NCBI GenBank assembly: GCA_009928645.1
Contig: SACH01000007.1
Coordinates: forward strand, 1 to 62,970
Source: Gammaproteobacteria bacterium
GTDB taxonomy: Bacteria > Pseudomonadota > Gammaproteobacteria > Chromatiales > Chromatiaceae
Direction: 5' to 3'
DNA length: 62,970 nt
This document shows, piece by piece, positions 51,939-62,970 of this stretch. Position numbers and translations under genes: made by a program. Below the pieces are notes generated by a model. It was given only the letters and a program-made list of their open reading frames with translations. It was not told where the DNA came from and did no database searches. Each line of letters opens with the position of its first letter. Positions within the stretch are counted from its first letter, which is position 1.

Positions 51939-53248
51939 TCATGGCGTCAGGGTTTCCACCTCAAAGCCCACCAGCTTGCGCTCCTGGCGGCTGAATTCGA
52001 CGCCGAGAAGATGAACAGGCTGGCCCGAGCCCCGGTGGGGGGCGGCATAGCCCTTGGCCTTGATTTGTTCCAGGGCGCGACCCTCGGGGCCGGCCGCCAC
52101 CAGCTTAAACTCAATCAGATAAATGTGACCGTTGAAGCGCAGGGTCAGATCCAGCCGCCCGGCGTTGCTGCTCTCCTCTGGCGTCAGGTCCAGGCCCAGG
52201 CTGGCGAAGTAGGCATAGGAATAAAGGCGCCGAGTTGGTTCATCGCCCCGATAGTGAGATAGCCCGTCTGAAACAGCAACGCCTCGGTACTGATATGGTC
52301 GACATCGAAGGCCGAGAGCAGGCGTTCGCTGGTCTGCCAATGCTCCAGATCGGGCACGAAGACCTGGCGGCTGGTCAGCACCTCAAGCAGAAAGGTCGGT
52401 GTCGCGGTCTCGAACCACCAGGGGTGAAACAGGCGTTTCTTGAATAGCAACAACAGATCGAAGGGGTTGTAGACCGCCTCCCCGGTCCAGTTGTAGCCGT
52501 TGTACCAGGCCCGGATCTGGTCGCGGTCCAGGCCGGCCAGCTCGGGTGTGAAGACCTGGTCCAAATCGGCCTCGGTGTAGCCGCAGATGGCCGAGTAATC
52601 CGCGTCCAAGGTGATGTCCGTCAGGTTGTTCAGCCCCGAGAACAGGCTGAACTTGCTGAACTTGCTGACCCCGGTCAGAAAGGCAAAGCGGATATGCGCG
52701 TCTGAGTCCTTGATCACGGAGTAGAGGTTACGCAACCCATCGCGCATCCGGCGCGCCGTCTCCGGGTCAGTCAGGTTGTCCAGAATCGGCTTGTCGTACT
52801 CGTCCACCAGCACGACCACCCGCTCGCGCGTGGTCGCGTGGGCCTTGCGCATCAGCTCGGCGAAACAGCCGGCGAGGGTCGGCTCCTCACAGCGGATGCC
52901 CAGAACCTCCTGATTGATGCCAAGTTGCTCGCGGATCTTGGCGTCGAGTTCATCCGGCTGCCGCACCACTCCGCCGCCAAAGCTCAGCCGGATCACCGCA
53001 CAGCGCCGGGACCAGTCCCAGCGATGTCCGGCCTCCAGCCCGCGGAACAGCGCCTCGTTGCCGCTAAGGAGTTCAGCCAGGGTGTCCAGGAACAGCGACT
53101 TGCCGAAGCGTCGCGGGCGGGAGAGGAAATAATACTTGCCCTCGTCGATCAGCCGCAGGGCAAAGCCGGTCTTATCAACATAGTAGTAATCCCCCTCGCG
53201 AATCTGGCGAAAGGTCTGGATGCCGATGGGCAAGGCTCGTCGCAACAT
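51939..53248 (-). pseudogene. AAA-ATPase-like / PD-(D/E)XK nuclease gene broken by an internal deletion
   Basis: N-terminal part in one frame: LPIGIQTFRQIREGDYYYVD, KYYFLSRPRRFGKSLFLDTL (P-loop), VVVLVDEYDKPILDNLTDP, typical of the AAA-ATPase_like family. After LLFQTGYLTIG near 52250 the frame runs into unrelated sequence. The PDDEXK_9 nuclease end continues in the next frame: LYSYAYFASLGLDLTPEESS, AGRLDLTLRFNGHIYLIEFK, QPVHLLGVEFSRQERKLVG. About 80 residues normally between these blocks are missing, so a deletion that shifted the frame has inactivated the gene. True start is the ATG at MLRRALPIG. Confidence 0.85.
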
Positions 53249-53346
53249 AGTGGTAAGTGGCTGGTTTTTATCTTTTAAACAATAGTTGAATGTTAGCGCG
53301 AGCGGATGTGCCCGCCCTCCCTGGATCGGATGAGCCAGGCCGAATA

Positions 53347-54855
53347 TCACCAATACCGGCTTTCAAAGCGGCGCAAGCGCCCTTCCAGGCGCCATTGCTC
53401 GGCGGCCTTGTCATTGGCGCTCAGGTAGGTCTGACAAACGGCGGAGGGGGCCTCGCCTAACGCCTGTCCCTCGCAGGCCGCGACCGGCTCCGGCTCGGGC
53501 TGAGCACCAAAGCTCCGCCACAGGCTGCCGCCGGGGGCGAAGGACTGCTCCAGACTGGTTCTTACCAGTCTTTTGACCTCGTCCCAGGTCAGGCCGTAAT
53601 CCTGGATCGCCCGAATGAATTCCTCGGTGTGACTGCTGCGGGAAATCCCCTGGTCGTCGGTACCCAGCATGACCGGGACCCCGGCGTCCAGATAGGTCAG
53701 GAAGGGATGATCCCCGCCCGTCACCCCCAGGACCTGGGCGTTGCTGGTCAGGAGGATGGAAAGGCCCACCCCCTGGTTGGCCATGTCCGCCACCAGCCCC
53801 TGCCAATCGGGCTCATGCTTCAGCGAGACCCCATGGGCGAGGCGGTTGGCGCCGGCGATCCTGACGGCCTGACTAATATGAAAGCTCAGTTCGGAGGGCG
53901 CGACGAGGTTGCCGGTCAGTTCCCCGGCATGGAGGGAGATCTTCAGCCCGGGGTATTTTCCCCGGAGAAAGGCCAGCATCGCCATGTGCTGCCCATAATG
54001 GGCCAGGGCGTTCGGGTGATCCTCCGGTGACACCAGATCCACCCCCAGCACCGCCCCCCGCGCGCCCATCTCCGCGCCAAAGATGAGCGAGGCGAACACC
54101 CACTGATTGGAGGAGGTGCGGTTGGCCTGCTGGATGAAGCGGATGCTCACCGCGCAGGCGGGAGGGGCGGGCACTTGCTCACAGCCCAGGATCGCCCGCT
54201 GGCGGGTCACGAGGTCGGTGATTTCCGCCTCGCCAGCAGCCAGCAGGCTGCGGACGCCGGCCACGTAGGTCTGGTAGTCCGTCGCCAGATCGCCCGTCCA
54301 GGGGAGTTGGTCGATGAGCTGGCTCAAGCCATCGCCCTGAAGGGTGATCAGCAACTCCAGATAGTCCGTCTGGTCCGCCGCCGCCCGGGTGGCCGCCTCG
54401 GCGAGCATCTCCGGTTTGTGGGTGGCGCTGATCAGGCCGAACCGGGAAAAGGTGGCGAAGAAGTGATCGTGACCGTAGCGGGGTGGTTCCAGGGGAAAGT
54501 TGCGCATGGACAGGCCGTCGATGGCCTGGTCATAAAGGGTCTGATCGGCGATGACCTCGGCGACTGGCAGGGAGCCATCCGCGCAGGGCGCCGCTAGGAT
54601 CTGCCAGGTGGTGATATCGATGCAGGCGCCGTCGTCGGCGGCCCAGCGCAGATAACTTTCGGCATAGGGCACCCCGACCAGATGGCTATGGATGTCCCCG
54701 CCCTTGGGCATCCCCTTGACGAACAGCGCCAGGAGGGCCGGATCGTTCCTGATCGCGTCCAGGTAGTGCGCCACTCCCTGATGGGAGGTCCCTGAACCCC
54801 CGCATCCGGTCAGCAGCAAGGCCAGGATCAGGCTCTTTAGCAGGCGCTTGTGCAT
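53347..54855 (-). CDS. Lipoprotein adenosine-deaminase-family enzyme
   Basis: 502 residues. Signal peptide MHKRLLKSLILALLLTGCGG with lipobox Cys17, then an adenosine/AMP deaminase-like TIM barrel with zinc ligands in MPKGGDIHSHLVG, ISLHAGELTGN, ANRLAHGVSLKHE and MLGTDDQGISRSS. An exported, membrane-anchored nucleoside deaminase resembling the ADGF group, likely scavenging purines in the periplasm. An ATG at 54891 would add 12 residues before the signal and is less likely. A 92-bp gap follows to the broken AAA gene. Confidence 0.88.
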   Translation of the reverse strand: MHKRLLKSLILALLLTGCGGSGTSHQGVAHYLDAIRNDPALLALFVKGMPKGGDIHSHLVGVPYAESYLRWAADDGACIDITTWQILAAPCADGSLPVAEVIADQTLYDQAIDGLSMRNFPLEPPRYGHDHFFATFSRFGLISATHKPEMLAEAATRAAADQTDYLELLITLQGDGLSQLIDQLPWTGDLATDYQTYVAGVRSLLAAGEAEITDLVTRQRAILGCEQVPAPPACAVSIRFIQQANRTSSNQWVFASLIFGAEMGARGAVLGVDLVSPEDHPNALAHYGQHMAMLAFLRGKYPGLKISLHAGELTGNLVAPSELSFHISQAVRIAGANRLAHGVSLKHEPDWQGLVADMANQGVGLSILLTSNAQVLGVTGGDHPFLTYLDAGVPVMLGTDDQGISRSSHTEEFIRAIQDYGLTWDEVKRLVRTSLEQSFAPGGSLWRSFGAQPEPEPVAACEGQALGEAPSAVCQTYLSANDKAAEQWRLEGRLRRFESRYW

Positions 54856-55008: not shown

Positions 55009-56208
55009 CTAAAAATCCAGCGTGGCCCTGAGACCGAAGACCCATCCCCTGACATCCTCCCCGGCGCGATAACGGTCGTTCATGTACTGAATATCAGCGG
55101 ACAGGGCTAGCCAATCCGTGGTGACGAAGCGGTAATAAGCCTCGCCGATCCACGTGCTGGCCAGGGATGGTTCATTCGGCGGGGCGGCCATCGGCCCTTC
55201 CCCGCCCGGTGAAGTATCCCCCTCTGGGCCTTGCAGGTAGCCCACGGCCAGCCCGAGATTGTCCCGCGCCCGCCCCCAAGCCGTGCCAAGCACATTGAGC
55301 CCGCCCGTGTAGCGGGCGATGTAATCGCCCAGGAGCGCATCTCCTTGCCATACCAGGCGCAGGAAGACCCCCCAGCCGTTACCCAGTTCCTGGTCCAGGG
55401 AGAGGACCGCGCCCTCAGCCCGGTCCAGTCCTGCCCCGGGGGCGGCGGCAAAGTCCGGCGTGGTGGTGAAATACATCAAGCGATAATTGCCCTCGCCCCA
55501 GGCTGTCCCCAGCCGGTAAGCCAACCCGGCCGCATAGTAACTGAACGGCTCCCCGGCCTCGTTTTCTTCCGCATTCAGGCCCAGGGCAGTGAGGGTCCAG
55601 TCCTGATAACGCCACTCCATGGCCCCGCCGGGATCATAAGTCGGCAGATAGGAACTATGCGAATTGGCGAAGGCGACGTTCATGAATTGGGTATTTTCAT
55701 CGCTGGCATAGGCGTTTTGATCCAGGAACGCGCCGGTGTCGAGGATGCCCCCGGTGAATCGCAGCGCATGATCGTCAGCGAACTGGAAATCATGGCTATA
55801 GGTCGCCACCAGCAAATAGCTGCGGTTACTGCCGTTGATATCCTTAACGTCCTCCTCCAGGCTGGCTGCCCACGGGGCCAGGGCGAAGGGTGAATCGGCA
55901 TTGAGGTCATTGCCCAGGGCGAAATCGAACAGCAGATAGACCTGATCCCGGTCGGTAAGATTCAGGGTCAGATCCGGCATCAGGGCGGCGCCACCGCCGC
56001 ATTTGTTCTCGTCCCCGGCCCCCGAAACCTGCTGACACTGCGTCGCCATGGCGATGGTACCACCCAGGGCCAGCCGCTCAGTGACATCGTAGGCCAACGC
56101 TTCCTGCCCTAGGAGGGTGGCGACCAGCAAGGTCAGCACGCTTGGGGCGGATAGGCGCCCGGGCTGCTTGGGGAACGCCGGATTTGGGCAACCAGATCCC
56201 ACCTTCAC
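55009..56208 (-). CDS. Outer-membrane carbohydrate-type porin (OprB-like)
   Basis: About 399 residues from a GTG with GGAG upstream. Signal peptide SVLTLLVATLLGQEALA, a mature barrel rich in alternating aromatic strands (FALGNDLNADSPFALAPWAA; LLVATYSHDFQFADDHALRF; WTLTALGLNAEENEAG) and a C-terminal Phe (GWVFGLRATLDF), the signal for BAM insertion. Closest resemblance is to OprB-like carbohydrate-selective porins; the ligand is unknown. Longer starts (ATG 56268, TTG 56286) precede the signal peptide without clear ribosome sites. Confidence 0.75.
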   Translation of the reverse strand: MKVGSGCPNPAFPKQPGRLSAPSVLTLLVATLLGQEALAYDVTERLALGGTIAMATQCQQVSGAGDENKCGGGAALMPDLTLNLTDRDQVYLLFDFALGNDLNADSPFALAPWAASLEEDVKDINGSNRSYLLVATYSHDFQFADDHALRFTGGILDTGAFLDQNAYASDENTQFMNVAFANSHSSYLPTYDPGGAMEWRYQDWTLTALGLNAEENEAGEPFSYYAAGLAYRLGTAWGEGNYRLMYFTTTPDFAAAPGAGLDRAEGAVLSLDQELGNGWGVFLRLVWQGDALLGDYIARYTGGLNVLGTAWGRARDNLGLAVGYLQGPEGDTSPGGEGPMAAPPNEPSLASTWIGEAYYRFVTTDWLALSADIQYMNDRYRAGEDVRGWVFGLRATLDF

Positions 56209-56280
56209 TGCATCAGCTCCGGGATGAGGGGGCCGGCCCGCGCCCCGGGGTCGAATGAGACTTGGCATGGGTGAGGGTGC

Positions 56281-56331
56281 TCGCAATGGCCACTTCAGGC
56301 TAGGGTTGGTGGTAAATCAGGCATGGTGACC
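56281..56331. repeat. Short dispersed repeat, copy 1
   Basis: TCGCAATGGCCACTTCAGG and the following TAGGGTTGGTGGTAAATCAG match 58250-58289 closely. In the second copy the same sequence lies inside a transporter-like reading frame; here the frame has a stop. It lies upstream of the porin gene. Confidence 0.5.
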
Positions 56332-56346
56332 CAAGTCGCTATCAGG

Positions 56347-57201
56347 TCAGATAGCCGAGGCGTTGAACCTCACCGCGACAATCAGACGGTAACCGACGCC
56401 AGGATCGGTGAGGATCAGGTCCGTGCTCACCCCTGCCTGGCCCAGCCTGCGGCGCAGGCGGCGGATCAGGGTATTGAGGGCCTGATGGGCGCTCTCGCCG
56501 CCCTGGGGATAGAGAGCCTCTTCCAGGAGCTTCCGGGGGGTGGACTGGCCGGGTTGCCGGCCCAGCAGCGCCAGGAGTGACTGGCGTACCTGTTCGCTCG
56601 CGGCGGCCAGGAAGGGGCTCAGGTCCAGCCGCTGGCCGCGGGTTTCTCCACCGTCATCGCCCGGGCGCAAGGCCTGGTCGAAGAGCCCCTCCAGCCGCGC
56701 GGCACTGGTGCCCAGGCGGTCAAGGTGTTTGGCGAGGGTCGCGGTCCCGGGCTGGAGCCCGAGCAGCTTCAACTGGGTCTTGATGATCGCCAGCGGGGTG
56801 CGGTACTGGTGGGCGATGCGGTCGAGGAAGTCGTCGCGGGCCTGACGCGCCCGCCGCCAGAGGAACGTCAGACGGAAATGAGGCACGGGCACGGCCTGGC
56901 CGGCGTTCCGCAGTTCCAGGTCCAGTTCGGCCAGGGTTTGGGCGAACCGTTCGCTCAGGATGCTGACCTTGCTCGCCGTGATCCGATACGCGATGGGGTC
57001 TGGCACCTGGGCAAAGTCACGGTCGGCGAGCCGCTGCAGATCCGCCCGGTCATAGGCCACCTCATCGACGGCGGTCCCCACCAGGAAGGCGGTCGGACTG
57101 AACAGCGCCGCCATTCCCGCCCGGTCACGGCGTACTAAATAGGTACCCAGGTAGCGCGTCAGGGCAAGTTGCAGCTCCGCTTCGGGGCTGACGATTGACA
57201 T
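56347..57201 (-). CDS. NTF2-like / HisKA / winged-helix fusion protein
   Basis: 284 residues in three parts. 1-115 is NTF2/SnoaL-like (YLVRRDRAGMAALFSPTAFL; VDEVAYDRADLQRLADRDFA). 120-180 is a histidine-kinase dimerisation domain with an H-box DRIAHQYRTPLAIIKTQLKL, His131 present, and a typical second helix (KHLDRLGTSAARLEGLFDQA). 195-275 is an OmpR-type winged helix (SLLALLGRQPGQSTPRKLLE; QALNTLIRRLRRRLGQAG; LTDPGVGYRLIV). There is no ATPase domain and no receiver. It may be a one-component regulator that uses HisKA to dimerise or to be phosphorylated by another kinase. Oriented towards the porin gene. Function is inferred. Confidence 0.8.
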   Translation of the reverse strand: MSIVSPEAELQLALTRYLGTYLVRRDRAGMAALFSPTAFLVGTAVDEVAYDRADLQRLADRDFAQVPDPIAYRITASKVSILSERFAQTLAELDLELRNAGQAVPVPHFRLTFLWRRARQARDDFLDRIAHQYRTPLAIIKTQLKLLGLQPGTATLAKHLDRLGTSAARLEGLFDQALRPGDDGGETRGQRLDLSPFLAAASEQVRQSLLALLGRQPGQSTPRKLLEEALYPQGGESAHQALNTLIRRLRRRLGQAGVSTDLILTDPGVGYRLIVAVRFNASAI

Positions 57202-57452
57202 CGCGGAGTGGTTTCTCCTGGGCAGAGGGTGTCGCGCCGACGGCAGGCAGCCGGGATCGCTACGGTAAGGCGAAAGGCGCCGGTCAGACAAGGAACAGCG
57301 GATGACCGGATCTGACGCCAAATGACGGCAGGGGGACGCCGGGAGTGTAAGGCCCGACTTTACCAGTAGTGGACCTGGCGGCGGCATGGGGAAAAATCGA
57401 CACTTGGGGTTGTGTCGGTGAGGCAATCTTCCTCCGACCCACAGTCCACCTC
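57202..57452. other. Intergenic region upstream of two divergent units
   Basis: Holds the presumed promoter of the fusion regulator on the minus strand. No ORF, hairpin or repeat that I can support. Confidence 0.4.
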
Positions 57453-57480
57453 TTGAGTTTTACCCTAGCCAATTTACTAT
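57453..57480 (+). promoter_or_regulatory. Sigma-70-like promoter of the toxin-antitoxin locus
   Basis: TTGAGT, 16-bp spacer, TACTAT. It lies about 60 bp upstream of a strong AGGAGG site that precedes the antitoxin reading frame. The base composition is AT-rich against its surroundings. Confidence 0.55.
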
Positions 57481-57552
57481 CTTCGGCAAGACAGTACGCC
57501 ATGCCTACTCGCTCAGCGAGGATACGCCCATCGCGCATAGGAGGACTTTTCA

Positions 57553-57783
57553 ATACGTAAACAGAGTGTTAAGTATGATTCACCCCTGGATGCCCTTGTG
57601 GCCATCGCTAAGCGTTTGAGTCGCTACGAAGCGGATAGCGGGATGGATTCTGAGGAATTTTTTCTCCGTTTCGGCCGCGGTGAACTCGATGACGACGCCA
57701 GGGTTATCGACTGGGCCAACGACTATCGCCACTTCCTTGCCCTACGTGGCAGTCTGGATGAGCGACTGCATGAAGCCGCATAG
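57553..57783 (+). pseudogene. Antitoxin-like gene with its start codon apparently changed to ATA
   Basis: A perfect AGGAGG lies eight bases before an ATA codon, and the frame IRKQSVKYDSPLDALVAIAK continues into RLSRYEADSGMDSEEFFLRF and DDDARVIDWANDYRHFLALR, which looks like a small antitoxin of TumE-type loci. The first ordinary start is a GTG at 57598, after the conserved VKYDSPLDAL block. So either ATA is used, or the start was lost. The stop overlaps the toxin frame by 14 bases, as in intact pairs. Confidence 0.6.
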
Positions 57784-58158
57784 TCTGCTAGCGAACTACC
57801 TGCAAGGCGTGGAATCGGCCTTTGCGGCCCTGCGGGCGTCTATGTGGAGAATTACCTCGAGGAATTGCTAAGCCCTACGCGGGCCACCTTGCGTATCCGC
57901 ATCCGCTTTCCCTCGGGTGGGCTTCTGGAGATTAATGAAGCGGTTGTAGTTGAATGTGGACGTCTGCAACATCTGGATTATCGTTACCACTGCCAGGGGC
58001 CTGAAGCCCAACTGGTGTTCTGTTACGACAGCACGCCGCACTTCCCCGATTTGCCTGGTTTTCCGCATCACAAGCATTTGCCATTCACAACCCTACCGGC
58101 CCGACGTCCTCCTCTGGAGGAGTTAATTGCCGAGGCCGCCAGTAGTTTTACCGACTAA
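57770..58158 (+). pseudogene. TumE-type toxin (DUF6516) with a frameshift
   Basis: The first part MKPHSLLANYLQGVESAFAA and LRA is in one frame; the rest (VYVENYLEELLSPTRATLRI, then PEAQLVFCYDSTPHFPDLPG and FPHHKHLPF) is in another. The switch falls in the CTGCGGGCGTC run near 57837, where one extra G would restore VESAFAALRG-VYVENYLEEL. Conserved blocks of DUF6516/TumE are all present apart from this. Either a single-base deletion or a sequencing error. Confidence 0.75.
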
Positions 58159-58193: not shown

Positions 58194-58400
58194 TCAGGTG
58201 GTGCCCTTACTTGACAGAGTTGAATGAGAAGTGGCAATGGTGATGGCGGTCGCAATGGCGTCTTCAGGCCGGGGTCGGGGGCAAATCAGTCTCAGTGAGG
58301 CCACCATGCTGATGACATTCACGATGGTGCGGGTGACGTCACTGATCGGGTCAATGGCGAGAAAAAGGGCGATGGCGGCTCTCGAAGAGCAGGTCAAGGG
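58194..58400 (-). pseudogene. C-terminal remnant of a dicarboxylate/cation symporter
   Basis: The reading frame SSRAAIALFLAIDPISDVTR and TIVNVISMVASLRLI resembles the last membrane segment of DAACS transporters (pattern xxDxxLDMxRTxxNVxGD). The rest of the gene is absent, and the frame upstream is taken over by the NYN gene end. Likely a leftover of a deleted transporter gene. Confidence 0.4.
58250..58289. repeat. Short dispersed repeat, copy 2
   Basis: TCGCAATGGCGTCTTCAGGC and CGGGGTCGGGGGCAAATCAG; see the copy at 56281. It lies within the symporter remnant. Confidence 0.5.

Positions 58401-59145: not shown

Positions 59146-62970
<3,825 letters not shown>

Follow-up and report, generated by a model that had tools for sequence, protein, structure and literature searches.

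A SnoaL–HisKA–winged-helix protein apparently derived from a two-component pair in a Chromatiaceae genome: candidate competitor of the regulator or remnant of the pair

Introduction

Known members of the OmpR/PhoB family are associated with tandem direct repeats of a period similar to that described below. In hybrid two-component regulators a single chain carries sensor, kinase, receiver and DNA-binding domain, and a one-component system comprises input and output in one chain and contains neither HisKA nor REC. Evolution is known to have joined kinase and regulator genes before, and natural two-component fusions have been surveyed (PMC4558063). The gene reported here differs from the fusions as outlined in that survey in that the catalytic and the receiver cores were both lost at the joint; the event is of a known kind, and what is unusual is its outcome, the cores of both phosphotransfer partners being gone.

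The gene lies in a stretch of 62,970 nucleotides (the window), which is contig C368 of a metagenome-assembled genome (MAG; G000, 4.83 Mb, 851 contigs). Another contig of the same MAG, C832, carries an intact pair composed of a SnoaL–coil–HisKA–HATPase kinase and a REC–winged-helix regulator, whose genes overlap by 4 bp. A second intact kinase–regulator pair was found in the congener G003 on contig C90 (JAHDND010000121.1, labelled Candidatus Thiosymbion sp. R3-B40 MAG, Chromatiaceae). The features are collected in Table 1.

Table 1. Features of the fused gene, its upstream region and its neighbours (positions in the window).
Feature	Position	Strand	Basis or remark
Fused gene, 284 aa	56347..57201, stop codon included	(-)	ATG at 57201
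SnoaL/NTF2-like part, residues 1-115, kinase-derived, without last strand	56857..57201	(-)	Pfam and comparison with intact kinase
HisKA (DHp) part, residues 121-178	56668..56841	(-)	Pfam
Winged helix of OmpR type (residues 208-273; 12-77 of the 77 Pfam positions)	56383..56580	(-)	Pfam
Presumed recognition helix QALNTLIRRLRR	56449..56484	(-)	String comparison among homologues
Junction 1, 10-bp GCGGCGGGCG	56848..56857	(-)	Twice, 192 bp apart, in C832 kinase gene; once in fused gene
Junction 2, kinase end / start of regulator winged helix	56576..56577	(-)	929 bp of C832 operon missing
Triple GTCA repeat GTCATTTGGCGTCAGATCCGGTCAT, 10-bp period, putative response regulator operator	57302..57326	(-)	About 100 bp upstream of ATG
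Putative core promoter TTGTCT, 17 bp, TTACCG	57263..57291	(-)	Geometry alike at 8/8 sites
OprB-family porin gene, from likely ATG	55009..56268	(-)	78 bp downstream of fused gene, same strand
TumE-type toxin gene, PF20126 E 4.6e-16	57844-58158	(+)	Upstream of fused gene

Domain composition of the fused protein

The fused protein was found to contain SnoaL_3 (residues 23-119, E 7.4e-8), HisKA (E 1.4e-7, 31.9 bits against a cut-off of 26.9) and Trans_reg_C (E 1.6e-11, 44.5 bits against a gathering score of 26.2), all three scoring above the Pfam gathering thresholds. This bears out the order NTF2/SnoaL, HisKA and OmpR-type winged helix that the initial annotation had read from the DNA. Its further statements, that ATPase and receiver are absent and that His131 is intact, hold as well: no HATPase_c or Response_reg row was obtained for the fused protein (Pfam, E limit 10, the HMMER filters dropping most matches above about 0.1), it contains neither the N-box nor the G2 string seen in the intact kinases, and His131 (56809-56811) stands within RIAHQYRTPL.

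The protein has the HisKA domain and the phospho-accepting His of a histidine kinase and no HATPase_c. The receiver with a phospho-accepting Asp that defines a response regulator is present in the intact C832 regulator and missing here. The protein resembles the OmpR/PhoB-type response regulators in Trans_reg_C, in the recognition helix and in the tandem direct repeats upstream of its gene, and differs from them by the missing receiver and the incomplete winged helix. With the hybrid regulators it shares a sensor and a DNA-binding output in one chain, but hybrids keep ATPase and receiver, of which it has neither. Like a one-component system it has input-like and DNA-binding domains in one chain, but HisKA is present and the input domain is truncated. 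Both end domains are incomplete: Trans_reg_C is matched at positions 12-77, compared to 1-77 in the intact C832 regulator, and SnoaL_3 at 13-106 of 121, compared to 4-119 in the intact C832 kinase.

The string QALNTLIRRLRR, which from the known fold of the family we take to be the recognition helix, is identical in all three fused proteins and in 13 of 14 regulators among the protein search matches. The H-box of the fused protein reads HQ, the usual form being HE or HD, and in other kinases HQ for HE weakens autophosphorylation. Among the 17 proteins having an H-box (18 were compared), 10 have HQ in place of HE at the phospho-accepting His, namely P0001-P0009 and P0018. AlphaFold2 applied to the fused protein gave a pLDDT of 36.6 with a seven-row alignment, which lends no support to a fold; an alignment of 22 rows was left out of the modelling, the ATPase rows of kinases having fallen on the winged helix. 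The best sequence match of the fused protein among solved structures had an E value of 0.19.

Comparison with the intact kinase–regulator pair

Window and C832 pair are collinear in three DNA blocks, 56848-57333 (89% identity), 56577-56857 (95%) and 56371-56577 (87%), in which the upstream region is included; the fused gene is also collinear with the G003 pair, at 75-80%. The initial annotation was right in that the sensor end of a kinase and the output end of a response regulator are merged in one chain. Compared to the intact pair, the fused gene has no HATPase_c, no REC, no last NTF2 strand, no signalling helix and no first part of the winged helix, and these losses are accounted for by two gaps. 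The first, of 192 bp and bounded by the 10-bp direct repeat GCGGCGGGCG, takes away the final strand of the NTF2 fold along with the coiled-coil signalling helix (the strand order was taken from a model of the intact kinase with a mean pLDDT of 54.8, used for this purpose alone). With the second, of 929 bp, HATPase_c and REC are lost, and so is the beginning of the winged-helix domain; at this joint the reading frame of the kinase is shifted into the exact frame of the regulator, and the fused frame is open through both joints. A plain repeat-mediated origin of junction 2 was rejected: CGGCTC occurs exactly twice near the ends in the intact operon, but the joint is 3 bp too short.

The initial annotation had named a frameshift that removed an ATPase domain as evidence that would speak against its reading. 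The removal is real, two stretches being missing relative to the C832 pair; the frameshift was rejected, the frame being kept across both joints. The fused gene is taken as the derived state because intact pairs are the commoner form and were found in both G000 and G003. Its origin from a kinase–regulator pair appears practically certain, and it probably arose when a second copy of that pair underwent two in-frame deletions. On these comparisons of sequence the architecture would be a derived fusion and not an independently assembled one. The contigs C832 and C368, although assigned to one MAG, might come from different strains. A plasmid or phage origin of the fused gene was rejected, no match being found in plasmid records, phage records or viral contigs.

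An alternative view, which follows the idea of the initial annotation, is that the protein is a one-component sensor, in which the NTF2 part would bind a ligand and set DNA binding by the winged helix, HisKA acting as a dimeriser and perhaps accepting phosphate on His131 from the intact kinase. Such a role would agree with three domains above their Pfam thresholds and with the presence of His131, and the identity of 86 of 92 residues (116-207, the HisKA part) between the fused protein and the C832 kinase makes mixed dimers conceivable. It would have to be exercised, however, by a protein that is short of the final NTF2 strand, has no coiled-coil signalling helix and no receiver to use a phosphoryl group on His131, and has HQ in the H-box instead of HE or HD, though the close intact kinases have HQ too. 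We regard this role as quite unlikely. These two losses in the sensor part, of the strand and of the signalling helix, lower the likelihood of the ligand sensing suggested in the initial annotation.

Occurrence and relatives

When 5.8 billion proteins were searched and the 7998 candidates with the most words in common were scored, 31 matches were obtained: 2 fused proteins, 9 full-length kinases (411-432 aa, with SnoaL, coiled coil, HisKA and HATPase_c), 2 shortened kinases, 4 partial proteins (P0015-P0018) and 14 regulators (REC and winged helix). The fused proteins are P0002 (284 aa, 97% identity to the window protein, from ENA) and P0003 (286 aa, 91% identity, from JGI). Both contain the three domains of the window protein, so that the search for the same domain order elsewhere, which the initial annotation had proposed, was successful, and at the protein level both junctions are alike in all three fused proteins. 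The shortened kinases, P0004 and P0006, lack only the stretch between SnoaL and HisKA.

No further fusion was obtained with residues 116-284 as the query (30 matches, 3535 candidates scored). A second fusion was likewise not found with the fused protein in 55 genomes, nor with a kinase in 210 genomes of the family (at most 8 candidates scored per genome), the window's own genome being counted in each set. When genome contigs were searched, the fused protein gave no loci and the kinase alignment gave two. A widespread architecture is therefore not supported, only three fused sequences, that of the window included, being known from the two protein searches (7998 and 3535 candidates scored). Among the listed matches of a search of the open literature, no title or opening of an abstract named a SnoaL–HisKA–winged-helix protein.

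Some variants of the pair look damaged: in P0012 the His of the H-box is replaced by Arg, P0015 and P0018 have no ATPase, and P0019 and P0020 have no REC acid pocket; some of them were possibly cut by contig ends or by start-site calls. In a further member of the family (L045, 2-955) a similar sensor module of SnoaL and coil is joined to GGDEF (PF00990, E 4.2e-45).

The relatives also allow an assembly or binning artefact joining two genes to be judged. The window belongs to a metagenome assembly of 851 contigs, and another odd joint is present at the far end of the contig. Moreover, in P0004 (351 aa) the first 152 residues are those of the window protein and the last 236 those of the C832 kinase, a mosaic that could be due to recombination or to an assembly chimera, so that chimeras between both loci may occur. 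Nevertheless P0002 and P0003, from ENA and JGI, share the junctions and differ in their N-terminal sequences, and the winged-helix block of the window is merely 87% identical to C832 and hence is not C832 sequence stitched in. It is hardly credible that the fusion is artificial.

Age and variation of the fused gene

In the N-terminal part, 115 residues long, the window protein and P0003 differ at 21 positions, against 3 of 169 in residues 116-284; over the latter stretch the window protein does not differ from P0002 (0/169). P0002 is identical to P0007 over residues 1-50 (50/50) and to the window protein over the following 234. Different N-terminal parts and a nearly constant remainder therefore point to one fused core on several N-terminal backgrounds. 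Between the window and C832, dN/dS was 0.59 for the SnoaL part, 0.26 for HisKA and 0.16 for the winged helix, with dS values of 0.18, 0.12 and 0.39, respectively; these ratios mix the time before and after the fusion and are no proof of function.

These data are relevant to the rival reading of the gene as an inert remnant, that is, a young and still open piece of a duplicated pair that is being lost, its promoter simply left over. As residues 116-284 are nearly identical in the three fused alleles, this part is young, and an open frame means little. The truncation of both end domains, the dN/dS of 0.59 in the NTF2 part and the occurrence of other damaged-looking versions of the pair among the homologues all agree with decay. 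On the other hand, the frame is preserved at both joints, and it is kept by all three alleles in spite of their differing N-terminal parts; the recognition helix is unchanged, and the layout of operator and core promoter is intact.

The GTCA-repeat promoter

Alignment of the sequence upstream of the window gene with the corresponding regions of C832, G003 and one more contig, L037, revealed strong conservation of the GTCATTTGGCGTCAGATCCGGTCAT block and of the stretch downstream of it. The exact pattern GTCA-N6-GTCA-N6-GTCA was found three times in G000, three times in G003 and not at all in G001 and G002 (congeners 76% and 88% complete, in which the kinase–regulator pair was not detected); the reversed pattern was absent from all four genomes. 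One of the G000 sites precedes the fused gene and two lie in the divergent intergenic region of C832. Two of the G003 sites lie in the divergent region between the kinase and a serine hydrolase, and the third has the porin orthologue on one side and an acetyltransferase gene on the other. This last triplet faces the acetyltransferase gene, which was not found in G000, G001 or G002 (E 1e-10). The divergent neighbour of the kinase in both C832 and G003 is a serine hydrolase of the beta-lactamase fold (PF00144). L037 also has two divergent sites, which makes eight known sites in total; there the first divergent gene encodes an M23 peptidase, followed by the serine hydrolase on the same strand.

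At all eight sites a TTG stands 15 bp past the start of the third repeat and two hexamers are 17 bp apart, the second being TTACCG/TTACCT or TAGCGT/TAGCCT. When GTCA triplet and TTG were sought together, six exact sites were obtained (G000 and G003), none with one mismatch and 11 more with two, at which level the reversed control gave 6. A strict generic sigma-70 scan predicted no promoter in 56200-57600, which would fit a weak, activator-dependent promoter and is no support for one by itself.

The GTCA triplet may be regarded as the predicted binding site of the regulator, its probable targets being the divergent hydrolase genes and the genes of the pair; kinase and divergent gene would form a small predicted two-component regulon. 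We know of no report of a small two-component regulon with paired GTCA-triplet promoters. The loci in which kinase gene and divergent neighbour each have a GTCA-triplet promoter are L007 (2597-3141), L035 (10926-11241) and L037 (3003-3523), the divergent neighbour in L007 and L035 being a serine hydrolase. L037 (RZZM01000434.1) is labelled Spartobacteria and carries the same hydrolase–kinase region; it is possibly misbinned or horizontally acquired.

The unchanged recognition helix makes direct binding to DNA, as put forward in the initial annotation, plausible, but the targets suggested by sequence are the gene's own GTCA promoter and those of the intact pair. The porin promoter was rejected as a target, since the scan of the window gave a single GTCA-triplet match, with no mismatch, which is that of the fused gene, and no second triplet, hence none before the porin, at up to two mismatches, a level at which matches also arose in 15 of 100 shuffles.

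Genomic neighbourhood

The fused gene adjoins the OprB porin gene and the TumE toxin gene, in contrast to the intact pair, which adjoins the divergent serine hydrolase, and its location differs from the place of the pair in both C832 and G003. G003 has the porin locus (84% DNA identity) but no fused gene in it. From the 5' region of the porin gene, 80 bp (56250-56329) recur as a direct repeat at 58219-58298 (76%) and flank the fused gene together with the toxin gene, which suggests an inserted or duplicated block. A short ORF before the toxin gene may encode an antitoxin. No terminator was predicted between the fused gene and the porin gene.

At 59146-62967 (-) an ORF runs to the contig end, in which an AAA ATPase stretch, FtsH-like by eye, is followed by an MmeI-type restriction-modification protein; the joint is either a gene fusion or a chimera of the contig end. 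The ORF at 52187-53353 (-) encodes an AAA-ATPase_like protein (PF09820), a family with more than 10 DNA-similar places, some of them partial, in G000 and G003 combined.

Possible role of the fused protein

The interpretation that we tentatively favour, at a little under even chances, combines the origin by two in-frame deletions with a role of the product as a phosphate-blind competitor of the intact regulator at GTCA-repeat promoters. The fused frame, the missing stretches, the unchanged recognition helix and the matching promoter layout are the points observed directly; the remaining steps are inferred. The intact regulator, once phosphorylated, would activate the promoter of the fused gene. 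Through its HisKA part the product would form dimers, be it homodimers or mixed dimers with the intact kinase, and the truncated winged helix would still bind the GTCA repeats. In the absence of ATPase and receiver the product would be neither self-phosphorylated nor switched at an aspartate, and, having no phosphate control, it would damp GTCA promoters. As the promoters of the intact pair and that of the fused gene are among these, a self-limiting brake would result. Read-through could in addition place the OprB porin under the control of the GTCA promoter.

It is tempting to go further and to imagine a DHp dimer wired onto the winged helix, whose DNA binding would be set by mixed dimers with the parent kinase or by phosphate on His131, so that a feedback brake made by the system that it blocks arises, next to an intact parent pair retained in the cell, and the porin is captured into the regulon; this more elaborate scheme, a natural short-cut out of two-component signalling, is unlikely.

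The competitor model is weakened by the state of the end domains, since the winged helix is without its first 11 Pfam positions and all that precedes them and the NTF2 part without its last strand, and either may not fold. The rarity of the fused form, known from the window and two proteins, the dN/dS of the NTF2 part and the damaged-looking variants of the pair also count against it; the lower dN/dS of winged helix and HisKA speaks in its favour. Folding is the main doubt: with a truncated winged helix and no usable model, the inert remnant is therefore nearly as likely.

Concluding remarks

The locus presents a kinase–regulator fusion caught near its birth, for which an intact relative of the parent, both joints and the predicted operator can all be read. 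The step from two-component to single-chain control is thereby open to direct test. If the product works, it would be a natural phosphate-blind competitor of a response regulator; if it is inert, it would mean that two-component pairs can decay into tidy, domain-rich open frames which are annotated as regulators.
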